This document shows, piece by piece, positions 1-36,514 of a stretch of DNA of 36,514 nucleotides; within the stretch, counting starts at the first letter, position 1; every line of letters begins with the position of its first letter. Position numbers and translations under genes: made by a program. Source of the stretch: Actinomycetota bacterium (GTDB taxonomy: Bacteria; Actinomycetota; Actinomycetes; JACCUZ01); NCBI GenBank assembly GCA_030841035.1, contig JAVEDI010000034.1, positions 1 through 36,514 on the forward strand. Direction: 5' to 3'. The notes below the pieces were generated by a model. It saw only the letters and a program-made list of their open reading frames with translations, made no database searches and was not told where the DNA came from.

Positions 1-947
1 ACCTGGGCCCGGTGGAGAGCGAGGAGGGCCTGCACTACCTGCGACCCGAGACTGCGCAGGGCATCTTCGTCAACTTCCTCAACGTCATGACCTCGGCCCG
101 CAAGAAGCCGCCGTTCGGCATCGCGCAAACAGGCAAGTCGTTCCGCAACGAGATCACGCCGGGCAACTTCATCTTCCGCACGCGCGAGTTCGAGCAGATG
201 GAGATGGAGTTCTTCGTCCAGCCGGGCACCGACGAGGAGTGGCACGAGTACTGGTTGCAGCAGCGCTGGAACTGGTACACCGACCTCGGGCTGCGGGAGG
301 AGAACCTGCGCTTGTTCGAGCACCCCAAGGAGAAGCTGTCCCACTACTCCAAGCGGACGGTGGACATCGAGTACCGATTCCGCTTCGGCGGCAAGGAGTT
401 CGACGAGCTGGAGGGCATTGCCAACCGCACGGACTTCGACCTCACCGCGCACTCCAAGCAGTCGGGTATCGACCTGTCCTACTTCGACCAGGAGAAGGGC
501 GAGCGCTGGACGCCGTACGTCGTCGAGCCCGCTGCCGGGCTCACGCGCGCGACACTGGCGTTCCTGCTCGACGCCTACACCGAGGACGAGGCGCCCAACG
601 CCAAGGGCGCGATGGAGAAGCGCACCGTCATGCGGTTCGACCCACGGCTCGCGCCGGTCAAGGCGGCCGTGCTGCCGCTCTCGCGCAACGCCGACCTGAC
701 CCCCAAGGCCAAGGACCTCGCCACCCGGTTGCGGGCCGCCTGGAACGTCGACTTCGACGACGCCGGGGCCATCGGACGGCGGTACCGGCGCCAGGACGAG
801 ATCGGCACGCCGTTCTGCATCACCGTCGACTTCGGCTCCCTCGAGGACCAGGCGGTGACCATCCGCGACCGCGACACCATGAAGCAGGAGCGTGTCGGCC
901 TCGACGCCGTGCAGGGCTGGCTGGCCGCCCGCCTGATCAGCGCTTGA
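1..947 (+). CDS. glyS: Glycyl-tRNA synthetase, C-terminal part (5' end outside window)
   Basis: This enzyme charges tRNA-Gly with glycine in the cytoplasm. The frame is open from base 3 ([20 protein letters not shown]), so the N-terminus is cut off by the window edge. Class II motif 2 ([19 protein letters not shown]) is followed by motif 3 ([19 protein letters not shown]) and a C-terminal anticodon-binding domain ([14 protein letters not shown] to [16 protein letters not shown]-like region, ending WLAARLISA). This is the homodimeric (alpha-2) type of bacterial GlyRS rather than the two-gene GlyQ/GlyS type. A hairpin at 986-1003 follows the stop codon. Identification is secure; only the length is incomplete. 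Confidence 0.96.
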
Positions 948-985
948 CGGTCGCGCCTGACGGGGCAGGCACGACATCCCTGGGT

Positions 986-1003
986 CCGCCGTCCTGACGG
1001 CGG
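986..1003 (+). terminator. Hairpin terminator candidate after glyS
   Basis: A perfect 8-bp stem, CCGCCGTC / GACGGCGG, closes a two-base loop 39 bp after the glyS stop. There is no clear T-run, as is common in high-GC actinobacteria. The rest of 948-1088 holds no gene that I can support. Confidence 0.5.
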
Positions 1004-1088
1004 CCACCGCGGCGACGCCCCCGAGAGCCGGTCGACAATGCGAGCCGGTAACGATGAAGTCCGCGGCCCGACCGGTCGATAGAGACGG

Positions 1089-2291
1089 GTGCGCAGTCCA
1101 CGATCGGATGTCAACAAGCAGGTGGCGGAGCTCCTCGTCACGGCCAAGGAGTCGCTGCACCTGTCCGTCGCGTTCCTGTCGCGGCTCGACGGCACGTTGC
1201 AGCACCTGGAGGTGGTCGAGTCCTCGGTGCCGTTCCTCTTCCGGGAGGGCGTGACGCAGCCGCAGGCGACGACGCTCTGCCAGGCGATCCTGGACAAGCG
1301 GTTGCCGCCGGTGATCCCGGACCTGAGGTCCTTCCCCGAGGCGATGAAGCTGCCGGCCGCGCGACTGCCACGCATCCGCAGCTTCGTCTCGGTCCCCGTC
1401 GTGCTCAGCGACGGCACGCTCTACGGCACGTTCTGCGCCGCGGGCCTCACGACGGACAAGGGGCTGACCAAGCGCGACAAGGCGCTGATGGACGTGCTCG
1501 CGCACGCCGCCTCAGTGGTGCTCGATCCCGAGGTGCGCGAGCAGGCGAGGTCGGCGGAGATCGAGGGCCGCCTGGCCCCGTTGATCGCGGCCGGCGGCCC
1601 TGCGGTGCTGCTGCAGCCGATCGTGGACCTCGCTTCGGGTGTCCGGGTGGGTGCCGAGGCGTTGAGCCGCTTCCCGGCCGCGTGGGGCAAGGCCCCGGAC
1701 GTCTGCTTCGCCGAGGCGCACAGCGTCGGGCAGGGCGACCAGCTGGAGCTGCTGGCGTTGGAGCGGGCCGCGGACCACCTCGCGCACGTCGAGGGGTACG
1801 TCGCGATGAACGTCTCGGCGGCCACCCTGCTGACCGATGCGTGCGGGGCACTGCTGCGCACCTTCCCGCTCGACCGGATCCTGCTCGAGCTCTCCGAGCA
1901 CGAAGCCGTCGAGGACTACCAGGCGCTCGAGGGCGCGCTCGCGCCGCTGAGGAGACGCGGCATGCGGCTGGCCATCGACGACGTCGGCGCCGGCTTCTCG
2001 TCGCTGCGGCACATCGTCGTGACGTCACCGGACGTCATCAAGCTCGACCGCAGCATCGTGTACGGCGTCGCGACGGACCGGGTCATCTCGACGTTGGTGC
2101 GAGCCCTGGTCGACTTCGGGCACGGCTGCCACGCCCACATCGTCGCCGAGGGCGTCGAGACTGCCGAGGACGCGGACGCGCTGCGGGCGCTGGACGTCGA
2201 CTACGGACAGGGGTGGTACCACGGCCGCCCGGGTGCGCCGGAGGCGCTCGACCCGGTGGGGACGCCCCTCGACGTACGCCTGAGACACTGA
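1089..2291 (+). CDS. GAF-EAL cyclic-di-GMP phosphodiesterase
   Basis: This 400-residue soluble protein probably hydrolyses cyclic-di-GMP. An N-terminal GAF-like sensor domain (about residues 10-150; PVVLSDGTLYGTFCAA, then a DKALMDVLAHAAS helix) is joined to an EAL domain (about 165-390). The EAL catalytic set appears complete: E190 in AEALSRF, N241 in MNVS, E267/E270 in LELSEHE, D297-D298 in AIDDVGAG, K318 in IKLD, E354 in AEGVET and Q374 in GQGW. There is no GGDEF domain or membrane segment. The GTG start is the first in a frame that reads directly into the GAF domain; no strong ribosome-binding site is visible. The dusB start lies 4 bp after the stop, which suggests co-transcription. The ligand of the GAF domain cannot be told. 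Confidence 0.88.
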   Translation: MRSPRSDVNKQVAELLVTAKESLHLSVAFLSRLDGTLQHLEVVESSVPFLFREGVTQPQATTLCQAILDKRLPPVIPDLRSFPEAMKLPAARLPRIRSFVSVPVVLSDGTLYGTFCAAGLTTDKGLTKRDKALMDVLAHAASVVLDPEVREQARSAEIEGRLAPLIAAGGPAVLLQPIVDLASGVRVGAEALSRFPAAWGKAPDVCFAEAHSVGQGDQLELLALERAADHLAHVEGYVAMNVSAATLLTDACGALLRTFPLDRILLELSEHEAVEDYQALEGALAPLRRRGMRLAIDDVGAGFSSLRHIVVTSPDVIKLDRSIVYGVATDRVISTLVRALVDFGHGCHAHIVAEGVETAEDADALRALDVDYGQGWYHGRPGAPEALDPVGTPLDVRLRH

Positions 2292-2295
2292 CGGT

Positions 2296-3450
2296 GTGAC
2301 CACGACCGCCACCCGGCCGTCGCGCATCGGCGCGGCGGCACTGCACGTGGGCCCGCACACCGTGTGGCCGCCCGTCGTGCTGGCCCCGATGGCGGGCATC
2401 ACCAACGTGGCGTTCCGGCGGCTGTGCCGCGAGTACGGCGGCGGGCTGTTCGTCAGCGAGATGATCACCACGCGCGCCCTCGTCGAGCGCGACCCCGAGA
2501 CGATGAAGCTCGTCGAGTTCGGCCCCGACGAGTCGCCCCGCAGCCTGCAGCTCTACGGCGTCGACCCGGTCGTCGTACGCGAGGCCGTGACGATGCTGGT
2601 CGCCGAGGACCGGGCCGACCACATCGACCTGAACTTCGGCTGCCCGGTGCCGAAGGTCACTCGGCGCGGCGGCGGGGCGGCGCTGCCGTGGAAGCGCGAC
2701 CTGCTGCGCGACATCCTCACGGCGGCCGTGCGTGCCGCGGGGGCGTCGCCCGTCACGATGAAGATGCGGATGGGCATCGACGAGGACCACCTGACCTATC
2801 TCGAGGCCGGTCGCATCGCCGAGGACTCGGGCGTCGCGGCCGTTGCGCTGCACGGGCGGACCGCCGCGCAGGCCTACTCGGGGCGCGCCGACTGGTCGGC
2901 GATAGCCCGGCTCAAGGAGCAGCTGACGTCGGTGCCCGTGCTCGGCAACGGTGACGTCTGGGAGGCCGCCGATGCGGTGCGGATGATGCGCGAGACCGGT
3001 GCCGACGGCGTCGTCGTGGGTCGCGGCTGCCTCGGTCGCCCGTGGCTGTTCCGGTCGCTCGACCGGATCTTCGCCGGTGAGCCCGACGAGCCGCACCCCT
3101 CGCTGGGCGAGGTGGCCGCGGTGATGCGCCGCCACGCGACGCTGATGTGTGACTGGCTGGGGGAGGACAAGGGTGCTCGGGAGTTCCGCAAGCACGTGTC
3201 CTGGTACCTCAAGGGCTTCGCCGTTGGTGGTGAGACCCGCTCGCGCCTCGGCCTGATCGCCTCGCTGGCCGAGCTCGACGACCTGCTCGCGACCCTCGAC
3301 CTGGGCCAGCCGTTCCCGGAGACCGAGCTGGGTGCGCCGCGCGGCCGCCTGGGCTCGCCGCGCCGCGTGGTGCTGCCCGAGGGGTGGCTCGACGACCGGT
3401 CCAGTGGCGTGCCCGACGCCGCTGCCGAGCTGTCCGTCTCCGGCGGCTGA
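2296..3450 (+). CDS. dusB: tRNA-dihydrouridine synthase, DusB/NifR3 type
   Basis: This FMN enzyme reduces specific uridines in the tRNA D-loop to dihydrouridine. The TIM-barrel signature motifs are present: VVLAPMAGITNVAFRRLC at residues 27-44, catalytic C116 in HIDLNFGCPVPKV, K156 in VTMKMRMG, an HGRTAAQAYSGRADW segment, and the FMN phosphate-binding GNGDVW and VVVGRGCLGRPWLF segments. Its 384 residues are normal for the family. The GTG at 2296 is used; the GTG two bases earlier is followed at once by a stop codon. The gene runs convergently toward oligopeptidase B and is followed by the repeat island at 3465-3581. Confidence 0.95.
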   Translation: MTTTATRPSRIGAAALHVGPHTVWPPVVLAPMAGITNVAFRRLCREYGGGLFVSEMITTRALVERDPETMKLVEFGPDESPRSLQLYGVDPVVVREAVTMLVAEDRADHIDLNFGCPVPKVTRRGGGAALPWKRDLLRDILTAAVRAAGASPVTMKMRMGIDEDHLTYLEAGRIAEDSGVAAVALHGRTAAQAYSGRADWSAIARLKEQLTSVPVLGNGDVWEAADAVRMMRETGADGVVVGRGCLGRPWLFRSLDRIFAGEPDEPHPSLGEVAAVMRRHATLMCDWLGEDKGAREFRKHVSWYLKGFAVGGETRSRLGLIASLAELDDLLATLDLGQPFPETELGAPRGRLGSPRRVVLPEGWLDDRSSGVPDAAAELSVSGG

Positions 3451-3464
3451 CCGTCCCCCCTCCG

Positions 3465-3581
3465 GTGATCGTGAGGGGGATCGGCACCCCTGTTCCGTGA
3501 TCGTGAGGGGGATCGGCACCCCTGGTACGTGATCGTGAGGGGGATCGGCACGGATTGCGTGCTGATTCCCCTCACGATCAC
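3465..3581. repeat. Three direct repeats at 32-bp period plus one inverted copy
   Basis: A 23-bp unit beginning GTGATCGTGAGGGGGATCGG starts at 3465, 3497 and 3529, exactly 32 bp apart. The first two copies share a further CCCTG. An inverted copy with two substitutions occupies 3559-3581. The third direct copy (3529-3551) and the inverted copy can fold into a 23-bp stem around a 7-nt loop; both substitutions give G-U pairs in RNA. The array lies wholly between two convergent genes. It could act as a bidirectional terminator, a REP-like palindrome or a protein-binding array. Confidence 0.85.
3529..3581. terminator. Long hairpin between convergent dusB and oligopeptidase B genes
   Basis: The 23-bp stem built from one direct and one inverted repeat copy lies 79 bp past the dusB stop and 128 bp past the oligopeptidase B stop. 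Its position and symmetry suit a terminator working in both directions. There is no T-tract. The function is inferred. Confidence 0.45.
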
Positions 3582-3606
3582 GGGCGGGAGAGGGGACCGG
3601 TGGCAC

Positions 3607-3660
3607 CGGCGGGACCGGCGGGACCGGCGGGACGGCGGGACAAGCGGGACAGACAGGCGG
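3607..3660. repeat. G-rich 9-mer tandem repeat
   Basis: Imperfect tandem copies of GGGACCGGC (3611-3619, 3620-3628, then decaying to GGGACGGC, GGGACAAGC and GGGACAGACA) fill the intergenic stretch downstream of the hairpin. GGG runs continue to about 3700. The G-runs on the plus strand could form a G-quadruplex. No gene is supported here. Confidence 0.6.
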
Positions 3661-3708
3661 GCCGGGCCAGGCCGGGTGGTTGGGACGGTGGCGGGTTGGG
3701 GCGGCAGC

Positions 3709-5796
3709 TCATCGGGCTGACTGGCCTAGCGCGTCGAGGACGAAGGCGTGCAGGAAGGCCTCGTCACGCCACGCGTCGTACCGGCCCGAGGGCCCGGTGT
3801 GGGCGGCGGCGCCCAGCGCGGTCTGCAGCAGCAACGGGGGCGCGTCGGTGGACGATGACTCGGCGGCGCGCAGCTTGGCCACCCACTTGGCCGGCTCGTG
3901 CACGCTGACCCGGGGGTCGTGGCGGCTCGCGGTCACCAGCAGCGCCGGGCGCTTCGGTCCGGGCAGGTTCTCGTACGGCGAGTAGGACCTGAGGTAGCGG
4001 TAGTGCTCGGGCAGGTGCGGGTCGCCCCATTCCTCCCACTCGCCCACGGTGAGCGGCAGCGTGTCGTCGAGCATCGTGGCCACCACGTCGACGAAGGGCA
4101 CCTGCGCGACGACGGCGCCGAACGCGTCCGGCGCCAGGTGCATGACGGCGCCCATCAGCAGCCCGCCGGCGCTCATCCCGCGCGCGGCCAGCAGGTCCGG
4201 CCGGGTGATGCCGCTCGCGCTCAGGTGCCGCGCACACGCGACGAAGTCGGTGAACGTCGTGCGCTTGGCCAGCAGCCGCCCCTGCTGCCACCAGGCGCGG
4301 CCCAGCTCACCGCCGCCGCGTACGTGGGCGACGGCGACCACGTAGCCCCGGTCCAGCAGCGGTCGCATCTCCCACCACAGCTCGGGGTCGAGACTGGCCT
4401 CGTAGGAGCCGTACCCGTACAGCAGGCACGGTCGCGGACCCGAGGCACCCGAGGCACCGGCAGCACCGGAGGTCAGCAGCGTCAACGGCACCAGCGTGCC
4501 GTCCTGCGCGCTCGCCCAGGTCTCCTCGCAGCGGTAGTCCCCTTCGGTCAGCACGCGCTGCTCGTGCGCGACGGTCTCGTGGCCGGTCCTCAGGTCGTGG
4601 TCGATGTCGACCGCCGGGCGCACCCACCCCTCCCGCACCACCCGCGCGGCCGCGACGTCGTACACCTCGTTGCGACCGAGACGCACCACCTCGCCGGGTG
4701 CCTCCGGACGCATCACCCGCACCGTCTGGCCCGCGGCGTCGAGGACGCGCAGCTGCAGATGTCCGTCCTGCCGTTCGGTGACCACGACGTGCTCGCCGAA
4801 CGCGTCGGCCGACACCACGCGCACGTCCGGCCGGTGCGGGAGCAGCTCCTGCCAGTGCGCCCGGTCGGGCGTGCGGACCGGGGAGGTGACGAGCCGGAAC
4901 TCCGGCCCGGTGTCGTCGACGACGATCAACAGCCGTCCGCCCTCGGGTCCCCGCTGGTGCTCGACGTGGTACTCCAGGCCCGTCCTACGTAGCTGTACGA
5001 CGACCGGGGCGCGCGTGGGGTCGCTGGTGGACACCAGCCGGATCTCGGAGGTGTCGCGGCTGAACGCCGTGAGCAGGACGAAGTCACCGCTCCGGGTGCC
5101 GTGGACCTCCAGCTCGAAGCGGCGGTCCGGCTCGTGCCAGACGACCACATCGCGGTCCTGAGACTGTCCGAGGACGTGGTGGTGCACCGTGTCAGGTCGG
5201 TAGGCCGCGTCCAGCGTCGTGTAGAGGAAGCTGGCACTGTCGGCAGCCCAGCCCAGGCCGTAGTACGTGCCGCTCAGGGTGTCGGGCACGTCGCGGCCGG
5301 TAGCCAGGTCCCGGACCCGCAGGGTGAAGACTTCGCTGCCGTCGAGATCGACCGAGTAGGCCAGCAGGCGCCCGTCGGGGCTGACCCGGCGCACGCCCAC
5401 GTCGACGTACGCCGCTCCTGCCTCGGCGGCCAGCGCGTTCTCGTCCAGCACGACCTGCTCGTCGGCGCACGCCGCGGCGGGCGCCCGGGCCAGGACGGTG
5501 TACTGCTCGCCCGCCCGGCGACGCAGCCGGTAGACCCAGTCACCCTCGCGCCACGGGGCGGACTCGTCGTCCTCGGGCAGCACGCGGGCCAGCTCGTCGT
5601 ACAGCGTCGCGCGTAGCCCGGCGAGATGTCCGGTCTGCTCCTCGGTCCATGCGTTCTCGGCGGCAAGGTAGTCGAGCAGCTCGGGGTCATCGACCTGCCG
5701 CATCCACGCGTAGTCGTCGGTGACGACGTCGCCGTGCAGGGTCCGGGTGGAAGGGCGGCGGGGTGCCCGGGGCACGGTTCGAGCGGAACGCTGCAC
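3709..5796 (-). CDS. ptrB: Oligopeptidase B, S9 prolyl-oligopeptidase family
   Basis: This 695-residue serine peptidase should cleave short peptides, classically after basic residues. An N-terminal seven-bladed propeller (about 70-410) gates a C-terminal alpha/beta hydrolase domain. The predicted catalytic triad is S542 in RGMSAGG, D627 in SRHDPRV and H666 in AAHTGPSGRYD; the YGSYEASLDPELWWEM and AHVRGGGELGRAWW signatures are also present. I chose the GTG at 5796 because the conserved N-terminus (RTLHGDVVTDDYAWMR) follows shortly. The open frame extends further upstream, but into the control region. There is no signal peptide, so a cytoplasmic location is likely. The gene is divergent from the ABC importer and shares its control region, which points to peptide or amide substrates being imported and then cleaved. 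Confidence 0.92.
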   Translation of the reverse strand: MQRSARTVPRAPRRPSTRTLHGDVVTDDYAWMRQVDDPELLDYLAAENAWTEEQTGHLAGLRATLYDELARVLPEDDESAPWREGDWVYRLRRRAGEQYTVLARAPAAACADEQVVLDENALAAEAGAAYVDVGVRRVSPDGRLLAYSVDLDGSEVFTLRVRDLATGRDVPDTLSGTYYGLGWAADSASFLYTTLDAAYRPDTVHHHVLGQSQDRDVVVWHEPDRRFELEVHGTRSGDFVLLTAFSRDTSEIRLVSTSDPTRAPVVVQLRRTGLEYHVEHQRGPEGGRLLIVVDDTGPEFRLVTSPVRTPDRAHWQELLPHRPDVRVVSADAFGEHVVVTERQDGHLQLRVLDAAGQTVRVMRPEAPGEVVRLGRNEVYDVAAARVVREGWVRPAVDIDHDLRTGHETVAHEQRVLTEGDYRCEETWASAQDGTLVPLTLLTSGAAGASGASGPRPCLLYGYGSYEASLDPELWWEMRPLLDRGYVVAVAHVRGGGELGRAWWQQGRLLAKRTTFTDFVACARHLSASGITRPDLLAARGMSAGGLLMGAVMHLAPDAFGAVVAQVPFVDVVATMLDDTLPLTVGEWEEWGDPHLPEHYRYLRSYSPYENLPGPKRPALLVTASRHDPRVSVHEPAKWVAKLRAAESSSTDAPPLLLQTALGAAAHTGPSGRYDAWRDEAFLHAFVLDALGQSAR

Positions 5797-36028: not shown

Positions 36029-36101
36029 TCCCCTGTAGCTCAATTGGCAGAGCAGCCGGCTGTTAACCGGCAGGTTTCTGGTTCGAGTCCAGACGGGGGA
36101 G
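36029..36101 (+). tRNA. tRNA-Asn (GTT)
   Basis: A complete cloverleaf: acceptor TCCCCTG / CGGGGGA (one G-T pair), D-arm GCTC / GAGC, anticodon stem GCCGG / CCGGC with loop CTGTTAA (anticodon GTT at 36062-36064), and T-arm TCTGG-TTCGAGT-CCAGA. The discriminator base is G101. CCA is not encoded. Confidence 0.95.
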
Positions 36102-36186
36102 CGCGATGACGCCATGAGGTCCACCGGCTCGACAGCGCCGCCCCTCGGGGCCGGTCTGGTCTCACTCGGGTCGGCTCCCGTCACGC

Positions 36187-36232
36187 GGGGCGGTAGCTCA
36201 GCCGGTTAGAGCAAGGGACTCATGGTCCCTCG
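36187..36232 (+). pseudogene. tRNA-Met (CAT) relic lacking its T-arm and 3' acceptor strand
   Basis: The acceptor 5' strand GGGGCGG, TA, D-arm GCTC...GAGC and a complete anticodon arm AGGGA-CTCATGG-TCCCT are present and closely resemble the intact tRNA-Met 120 bp downstream. The sequence after it (CGCAGGGTAGTGCTCCGCCG) has no T-arm and no proper acceptor partner. The loop CTCATGG differs from the expected CTCATAA. This looks like a truncation product, possibly from integration or excision of a mobile element. Confidence 0.65.
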
Positions 36233-36277
36233 CAGGGTAGTGCTCCGCCGCAGGTCAGAACCTAGATGGCAGGTGAT

Positions 36278-36301
36278 TGACAGCCAAACTGACAGCCAAA
36301 C
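36278..36301 (+). repeat. Two tandem 12-bp repeats upstream of tRNA-Met
   Basis: TGACAGCCAAAC occurs twice without a gap (36278-36289 and 36290-36301). The TGACAG core also recurs in the repeats on the other side of the tRNA-Met gene (36399-36487). Confidence 0.8.
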
Positions 36302-36307
36302 ACTCTC

Positions 36308-36381
36308 GCGGCCGTAGCTCAGACGGTTAGAGCAGCGGACTCATAATCCGCCCGTCGTCGGTTCGAGTCCGACCGGCCGCA
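36308..36381 (+). tRNA. tRNA-Met (CAT)
   Basis: A complete cloverleaf: acceptor GCGGCCG / CGGCCGC (all seven pairs), D-arm GCTC / GAGC, anticodon stem GCGGA / TCCGC with loop CTCATAA (anticodon CAT at 36342-36344), and T-arm GTCGG-TTCGAGT-CCGAC. The fully paired acceptor end rules out initiator tRNA. An elongator methionine tRNA is most likely; a lysidine-modified isoleucine tRNA with the same anticodon is less likely. Confidence 0.93.
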
Positions 36382-36390
36382 CCGCCGGCG

Positions 36391-36514
36391 TGTATTGGTT
36401 CGGCTGAAGCTTGACAGTTGGGCTTCGGTTGAGGCTTTACAGGTCTTCGGCTGATGGTTGACAGCTACTTCGGCTGATTCTTGACACTCCCTGGACATGA
36501 GGGAGATGAGTGTG
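36391..36514 (+). mobile_element. Probable end of a mobile element (IS21-like?), truncated by window
   Basis: Directly after the tRNA-Met gene the sequence starts TGTATTGG and then carries four imperfect repeats of TTCGGCTGA-N2-CTTGACAG. Multiple sub-terminal repeats of this sort are typical of IS21-like elements; integrase arm sites are an alternative. After the repeats, GAGGGAG precedes ATG 36506 and GTG 36512 at the very end, which could be the start of a transposase or integrase gene. The protein itself is outside the window, so the type is unproven. Confidence 0.4.
36399..36487 (+). repeat. Four tandem 19-bp repeats with TTGACA cores
   Basis: Copies start at 36399, 36424, 36446 and 36469 (spacing 25, 22 and 23 bp). 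They read TTCGGCTGAAGCTTGACAG, TTCGGTTGAGGCTTTACAG, TTCGGCTGATGGTTGACAG and TTCGGCTGATTCTTGACAC. The even spacing and shared blocks indicate protein-binding sites, most likely of a recombinase. Confidence 0.8.

Follow-up and report, generated by a model that had tools for sequence, protein, structure and literature searches.

Fixed-length DNA hairpins dispersed in an actinobacterial genome are associated with a putative Vsr-like endonuclease gene

The window, by which we mean the entire 36,514-nucleotide stretch of contig JAVEDI010000034.1 (assembly GCA_030841035.1, Actinomycetota bacterium; genome G000), carries a group of repeats between two convergent genes, dusB and a prolyl-oligopeptidase-family gene (Table 1). 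A 23-bp arm, GTGATCGTGAGGGGGATCGGCAC, occurs there in three direct copies without mismatches that start 32 bp apart, the third at 3529-3551 (+), and a fourth copy with two mismatches is inverted (3559-3581, -). The arm had 0 matches in 100 dinucleotide shuffles, and two repeat finders likewise recovered both the 32-bp step and the inverted copy. These repeats, their stem, and their convergent setting are as an earlier, sequence-only reading described them, and the inverted repeat can be extended to 25 bp (3528-3552 / 3558-3582). That reading was also right to see neither a CRISPR nor an ordinary terminator here; the locus holds a dispersed REP-like palindromic repeat. The hairpin formed by the third and fourth copies lies 79 bp past dusB and 128 bp from the end of the convergent gene. 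In a genome of the same genus (G001), two BLAST-matched counterparts of the flanking genes lie about 30 bp apart with no hairpin of the family between them. Elsewhere in the window, at 36029-36486, there are two tRNA genes with adjacent tandem repeats (12-bp unit, 36278-36301; 22-bp unit, 36399-36486).

Table 1. Coordinates of the repeat features and flanking genes in the window
Feature	Positions	Strand	Remarks
53-bp hairpin unit	3529..3581	+	foot (12 bp), variable middle and inner stem, mirrored on either side of a 7-nt loop
Left 12-bp foot, GTGATCGTGAGG	3529..3540	+	also in other genera
Right 12-bp foot, inverted	3570..3581	-	repeat match
7-nt loop, GGATTGC	3552..3558	+	differs between copies
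Extra single arm	3465..3487	+	0 mismatches
Extra single arm	3497..3519	+	0 mismatches
G-rich 9-bp minisatellite beside the hairpin	3593..3650	+	
dusB, tRNA-dihydrouridine synthase	2296..3450	+	PF01207; flanking gene
Prolyl oligopeptidase family gene	3709..5775	-	PF02897 + PF00326; flanking gene

The absence of further copies from every genome, which would have counted against the sequence-only reading, does not hold, as copies are abundant in this one: the 23-mer has 162 matches at up to three mismatches (0 for a reversed control) and 120 BLAST matches. The 12-mer foot, RTGATCGTGAGG, has 163 exact occurrences in G000 and its reversed control none, and the pattern RTGATCGTGAGG-N29-CCTCACGATCAY is present in 66 exact copies, or 75 with up to two mismatches. 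Stretches fetched from G000 contained 75 units (70 distinct) at 54 sites when up to three mismatches per foot were allowed; 19 of the 54 sites hold more than one hairpin, and the hairpins are always exactly 53 bp long. The true unit is this 53-bp hairpin, and the 32-bp steps in the window are a local accident. The regular 32-bp array of the earlier reading is not a property of the family, most copies of which are single hairpins, with extra arms at distances of 21-23, 31-33, 37 or 42 bp. Extra single 12-bp feet beside hairpins (e.g., window 3465-3519, L110 2069-2136, and L111 2122-2146) follow steps of 21-23, 31-33, 42 or 13 bp, most of which appear to lie close to whole turns of the helix.

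The units are nearly all intergenic. With a simple codon-usage gene finder written for this analysis, 24 of the 54 sites were called tandem, 19 convergent, 8 divergent, and 3 as contig edges; its first run placed 2 of 57 units inside genes, both touching uncertain gene starts. Hairpin-free gaps of at least 60 bp, which served as background, comprised 29 tandem, 29 divergent, and 7 convergent cases. Convergent gaps are thus enriched among hairpin sites (19/51 versus 7/65) and divergent gaps are depleted (P 0.001 each), although the convergent setting seen in the window is not general across the family. Whichever of the three gene arrangements surrounds it, the hairpin has a C-rich left flank and a G-rich right flank, a switch that control gaps do not show. 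Across the 54 sites, this skew from C-rich to G-rich is seen on both strands, often with minisatellites. Among 107 proteins encoded beside the hairpins, only three weak pairs represented recurrent gene families. Rfam gave no above-threshold match for the hairpin. Viral contigs yielded neither the hairpin nor a nuclease relative, and phages yielded none.

Each hairpin has a nearly invariant foot (positions 1-12 and their partners), a loosely paired middle (positions 13-17), an inner stem (positions 18-23), and a loop of 7 nt. Foot and length are constant between genera, whereas the inner stem is altered on both sides: it is CGGCAC/GTGCCG in G000, of the CGGCC/GGCCG type in G006 and G007, and of the CTGGATTG/CAATCCAG type in MAGs labelled Geodermatophilaceae. 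In RNA of the + strand, both mismatches of the window copy become G-U pairs, giving an unbroken 25-pair stem (z -6.5), whereas in RNA of the - strand the same two positions are unpaired. The selection on an RNA hairpin that had been read from this G-U compatibility is not supported. Within G000, agreement at positions 13-19 is lower between a hairpin's own two arms (0.571) than between arms shuffled among the sites (0.631, P 0.0014); therefore, it is an imperfect, directional palindrome that is kept, with no sign of selection for RNA pairing. Strand-consistent G-U wobble (20 of 36 sites versus 12.2 expected) was considered as proof of selection at the RNA level and was dropped because the arms behave as inherited haplotypes and their pairing lies below the shuffle. 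A search of 3300-3800 returned 0 terminator-like sites and no T tract after the stem, and downstream flanks are G-rich, not T-rich. Neither RNA-hairpin selection nor a canonical terminator role is supported.

The sequence-only reading had suggested looking for a linked RAYT gene. None of the order's 8 genomes yielded the Y1 domain of this type (PF01797), while the control matched in 5 of 14 reference genomes; DUF3800 (PF12686) was likewise found in 0 of the 8. The gene that is linked encodes a putative DUF559/MTES_1575 Vsr-like endonuclease. In both G000 and G007, a gene of 293-299 aa has a hairpin on either side; the open frame in G000 is at L023 4387-5268, on contig C97. The gene lies between one that we take, from sequence inspection, to encode a HAD-phosphatase and one for a bacterial proteasome activator (Pfam match). 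It is the only DUF559/MTES_1575 (Vsr-fold) endonuclease homologue detected in G000. Its product matches PF18741 with E 1.5e-8 and 35.0 bits, under the cut-off of 38.2, and DUF559 with 16.0 bits (cut-off 20.6); among 18 relatives, PF18741 was matched in 11 and DUF559 in 10 at E 0.01, and the N-terminal AbiEi_4 domain ("Transcriptional regulator, AbiEi antitoxin") in 6. A passage of PMC3710099 describes the PF18741 domain as a Vsr-fold REase. An alignment of 18 sequences shows no variation at E194, D225, E236, and H243; the damaged L191 as well as L195 and L196 stood outside it. A profile search of the PDB returned 3hrl (E 1e-9), PvuRts1I (0.01), and 3r3p, a "mobile intron protein" (0.013). By these matches, we regard the protein as a putative Vsr-type PD-(D/E)XK-like nuclease. 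A single-sequence AlphaFold model of the G007 protein had a mean pLDDT of 37 and was discarded.

At up to two mismatches, 4 of the 393 genomes of the class have the pattern, each of them from the order to which the window belongs, and a scan of genome contigs for the hairpin yielded 22 loci from seven MAGs; copies are absent from G001. At this tolerance G006 has five copies and G005 two, and only distant nuclease homologues were found in both (G006 is 80% complete). G006 and G007 carry three and eight exact copies, and five of these 11 lie at gene borders that also bear hairpins in G000: downstream of ffh (G006 and G007), on both sides of the nuclease gene (G007), and at L080/L029 (G006). Such sharing is unlikely by chance (P 0.001 to 2e-6, with 54 sites and 800-3000 borders assumed). 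The ffh border is hairpin-occupied in G000, G006, and G007, tight in G001, G002, G004, and G005, and filled by other, unrelated sequence in G003. In G004, the HAD-phosphatase and proteasome-activator genes adjoin at a tight junction, without the nuclease gene and without hairpins. The palindrome near the ffh border of G004 is located after the amidohydrolase gene. Two junctions are thus occupied here and empty in relatives, which is the empty-site pattern of a transposable element. In the single case looked at for target duplication, a stretch of about 28 bp is repeated around a G006 copy. Copies at orthologous borders carry the inner stem of their own genome, which points either to recurrent insertion at preferred borders or to homogenisation of copies; the borders shared by G000, G006, and G007 could represent old, stable elements.

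Several observations accompanied these comparisons. At the ffh-amidohydrolase border in G007 (L062/L131), an ATG within the hairpin is in frame with the amidohydrolase and may act as its start codon (MIVR...). G004 has, in L152-L171, at least three further hairpin families of 59, 69, and 80 bp that start with CAAGATC, a pattern present there in 20 copies; two of these CAAGATC families have no adjacent nuclease in the stretches read. The MAG JAJAYQ (isolate CAN_BIN15) is titled Spirochaetaceae, a title that is probably wrong, as its loci L054, L058, L062, L065, L067, L071, and L074 match G007, which belongs to the order of the window.

Only protein similarity was used to pick nuclease homologues. 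The 8 genomes gave 24 matches, of which 20 had loci and the other four stand outside the counts; one Rhodococcus ruber and one Tsukamurella record were added. The nuclease genes are associated with hairpins: palindromes lie on both sides within 400 bp at 11 of 21 nuclease loci, with Tsukamurella outside this count, compared to 8 of 277 size-matched genes (P 6e-10), the controls coming from five genomes of the same order only (G001-G005). Similarity between upstream and downstream flanks exceeded the maximum of 282 control genes (17.0) at 15 of 21 scored nuclease loci, including Rhodococcus and Tsukamurella, and at 13 of 19 when the two loci that had given rise to the idea were removed. L184, L185, L192, L193, and L197 showed no excess similarity, L194 ties the control maximum, and L187 was not scorable. 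The flank repeats vary by nuclease type: examples are AGTGGACCGG at L180 and L186, CAGCACACAG at L188, L189, and L194, GACTGTCGG at L190, and ATCGCTAGTTG at L181. At L195, the brackets are single arms from a hairpin family also dispersed in G004; at L196, they are long inverted flank repeats. The idea that L195 shows how deletion of the gene leaves a hairpin as remnant was rejected, as the arms face the wrong way.

In most comparisons, hairpin type tracks the nuclease and not the genome. Across 12 loci, hairpin similarity correlates with nuclease identity (Mantel r 0.44, P 0.0007). The nuclease pairs with the highest identity (three pairs at 57-65%, each from different genomes) have a hairpin common to each pair, and none of six same-genome nuclease pairs shares one. 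The exception is L191, a damaged-looking gene with a foot near that of G000 at only 26-27% protein identity. The association extends to the added records. The R. ruber record (73,973 bp) has six hairpins of one family, all 49 bp long, two of which flank the nuclease homologue; of its 13 arm matches, 12 fall outside any annotated gene, and the motif has 0 matches when reversed. In Tsukamurella, two related hairpins of 41 bp stand one on each side of the DUF559 gene (WP_068740572.1), and similar stretches are present in two further records of the same species. Plasmid searches with three other nuclease types gave no match or the Rhodococcus record again, and a short Methylophaga DUF559 protein from the search that yielded the Tsukamurella record, which stands outside the counts, had no flanking hairpin pair. 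Two records titled plasmids, NZ_CP145323.1 and NZ_LR134454.1, look like chromosome pieces by their housekeeping and mycolic-acid genes: pks13 is found in both and serS in NZ_CP145323.1. Among the open-licence papers searched, none joins DUF559, MTES_1575, or Vsr with such palindromes.

Other readings account for part of these data. The hairpins might be regulatory sites at which a wHTH-nuclease regulator or defence protein binds the inverted feet, the dispersed copies being its regulon or structural sites and nothing being mobile. The AbiEi_4 matches in a third of the relatives, the invariant foot, and the spacing of extra feet near multiples of a helical turn would fit, yet the inner hairpin is palindromic in every genus although a dimer site does not need it, the over-represented convergent gaps are a poor location for operators, and a genome of the same genus has no copies; we consider this unlikely. 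It is quite unlikely that they are structural RNA hairpins at gene ends, acting in termination or in protection of mRNA 3' ends and multiplied by local duplication or gene conversion, with an incidental link to the nuclease. Such a role would explain the very stable fold, the excess of convergent gaps, and the rarity of divergent ones, but it is at odds with the terminator search and the G-rich flanks, with arms that do not co-vary within G000, and with the eight divergent sites, and it leaves the unrelated hairpins around homologous nucleases unexplained.

Classical REP elements moved by a RAYT (a Y1 HUH transposase) share with the family its intergenic, palindromic, multicopy, and clustered character. 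They are very improbable here: no conserved GTAG or CGTC tag appears beside the foot in the flank base profile of oriented copies, the 53-bp unit exceeds the 20-40 bp that the abstract of PMC3733652 gives for REPs, and the absence of PF01797 from the order's 8 genomes contradicts this origin unless assembly gaps hide a Y1 gene. Membership among the DUF3800-type RNA hairpins (Rfam RF02963), to which a sub-threshold match of 24.0 bits (cut-off 60.7) might point, is extremely improbable, given that PF12686 is missing from the eight genomes and that matches just as weak, to microRNA models, are obtained with other long hairpins of the family.

The window copy is instead probably a non-autonomous REP-like hairpin element belonging to a family that the cognate Vsr-like nuclease mobilises, and it most likely depends on that enzyme. 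The sister copies that bracket the nuclease gene suggest a REP-like genomic parasite that uses another kind of enzyme than the known ones. We infer that mobilisation is driven by the nuclease in the following way. Its N-terminal region (an AbiEi_4-type wHTH where matched) and Vsr-like domain would recognise the foot and the hairpin, the enzyme would cut at or near the hairpin, or at the target, and repair would then copy the hairpin into intergenic gaps. A full element would then consist of the nuclease gene with a hairpin at each side, and the dispersed hairpins would be its passengers. The loci without flank repeats, the hairpins of G005 and G006 without a close nuclease homologue, and the G004 families without an adjacent nuclease in the stretches read argue against mobilisation. 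More tentatively, and with less confidence than for the window copy, wHTH-Vsr-type endonucleases, kin of homing endonucleases, may form a distinct class of actinobacterial mobile elements that spread fixed-length DNA hairpins, an HUH-independent counterpart of REP/RAYT in which each nuclease lineage has its cognate hairpin.

The family resembles REP/RAYT systems (REPtrons, BIMEs, and REPINs) in its many intergenic palindromes, their local clusters, and the repeats on both sides of an enzyme gene. According to passages of PMC3733652, REPs or long inverted repeats border the RAYT genes; similarly, intact hairpins are replaced at some nuclease genes (L195 and L196) by single inverted arms or by long inverted repeats in the flanks. 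It differs in its enzyme, a predicted Vsr-fold PD-(D/E)XK-like nuclease in place of an HUH Y1 transposase, in its unit length (49 bp in R. ruber), and in lacking the tag and the Y1 gene. Like MITEs, the units are short and non-autonomous, with inverted ends and an internal part that is free to vary; unlike MITEs, they fold end to end into a single hairpin whose length is fixed, no known transposase accompanies them, and as regards target-site duplication they are candidate elements only. Vsr-like (EDxHD) homing endonucleases match the nuclease in the profile of the catalytic region (3r3p) and in the conserved E, D, E, and H, yet here no intron or intein was seen, hairpins bracket the gene, and the protein has an extra N-terminal half. 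The AbiEi-type antitoxin and DUF559 "orphan" proteins of Actinobacteria have the Pfam domains AbiEi_4, DUF559, and MTES_1575 in common with relatives of the nuclease, but we found no report of a hairpin association for them among the open-licence papers searched. Intrinsic terminators are also stable GC-rich hairpins between convergent genes, but they differ from this family, which has a conserved foot sequence, no T tract, and divergent and tandem sites too.

To our knowledge, HUH transposases (RAYTs) have so far been the explanation for REP-like repeats. The present genome, with its roughly 75 REP-like hairpins, no detected RAYT, and a bracketed Vsr-fold nuclease gene, offers a second route to repeats of this kind that can be tested directly. 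DUF559/AbiEi orphan genes are abundant in Actinobacteria, and the mobilisation proposed here would, if true, give a function to part of them.
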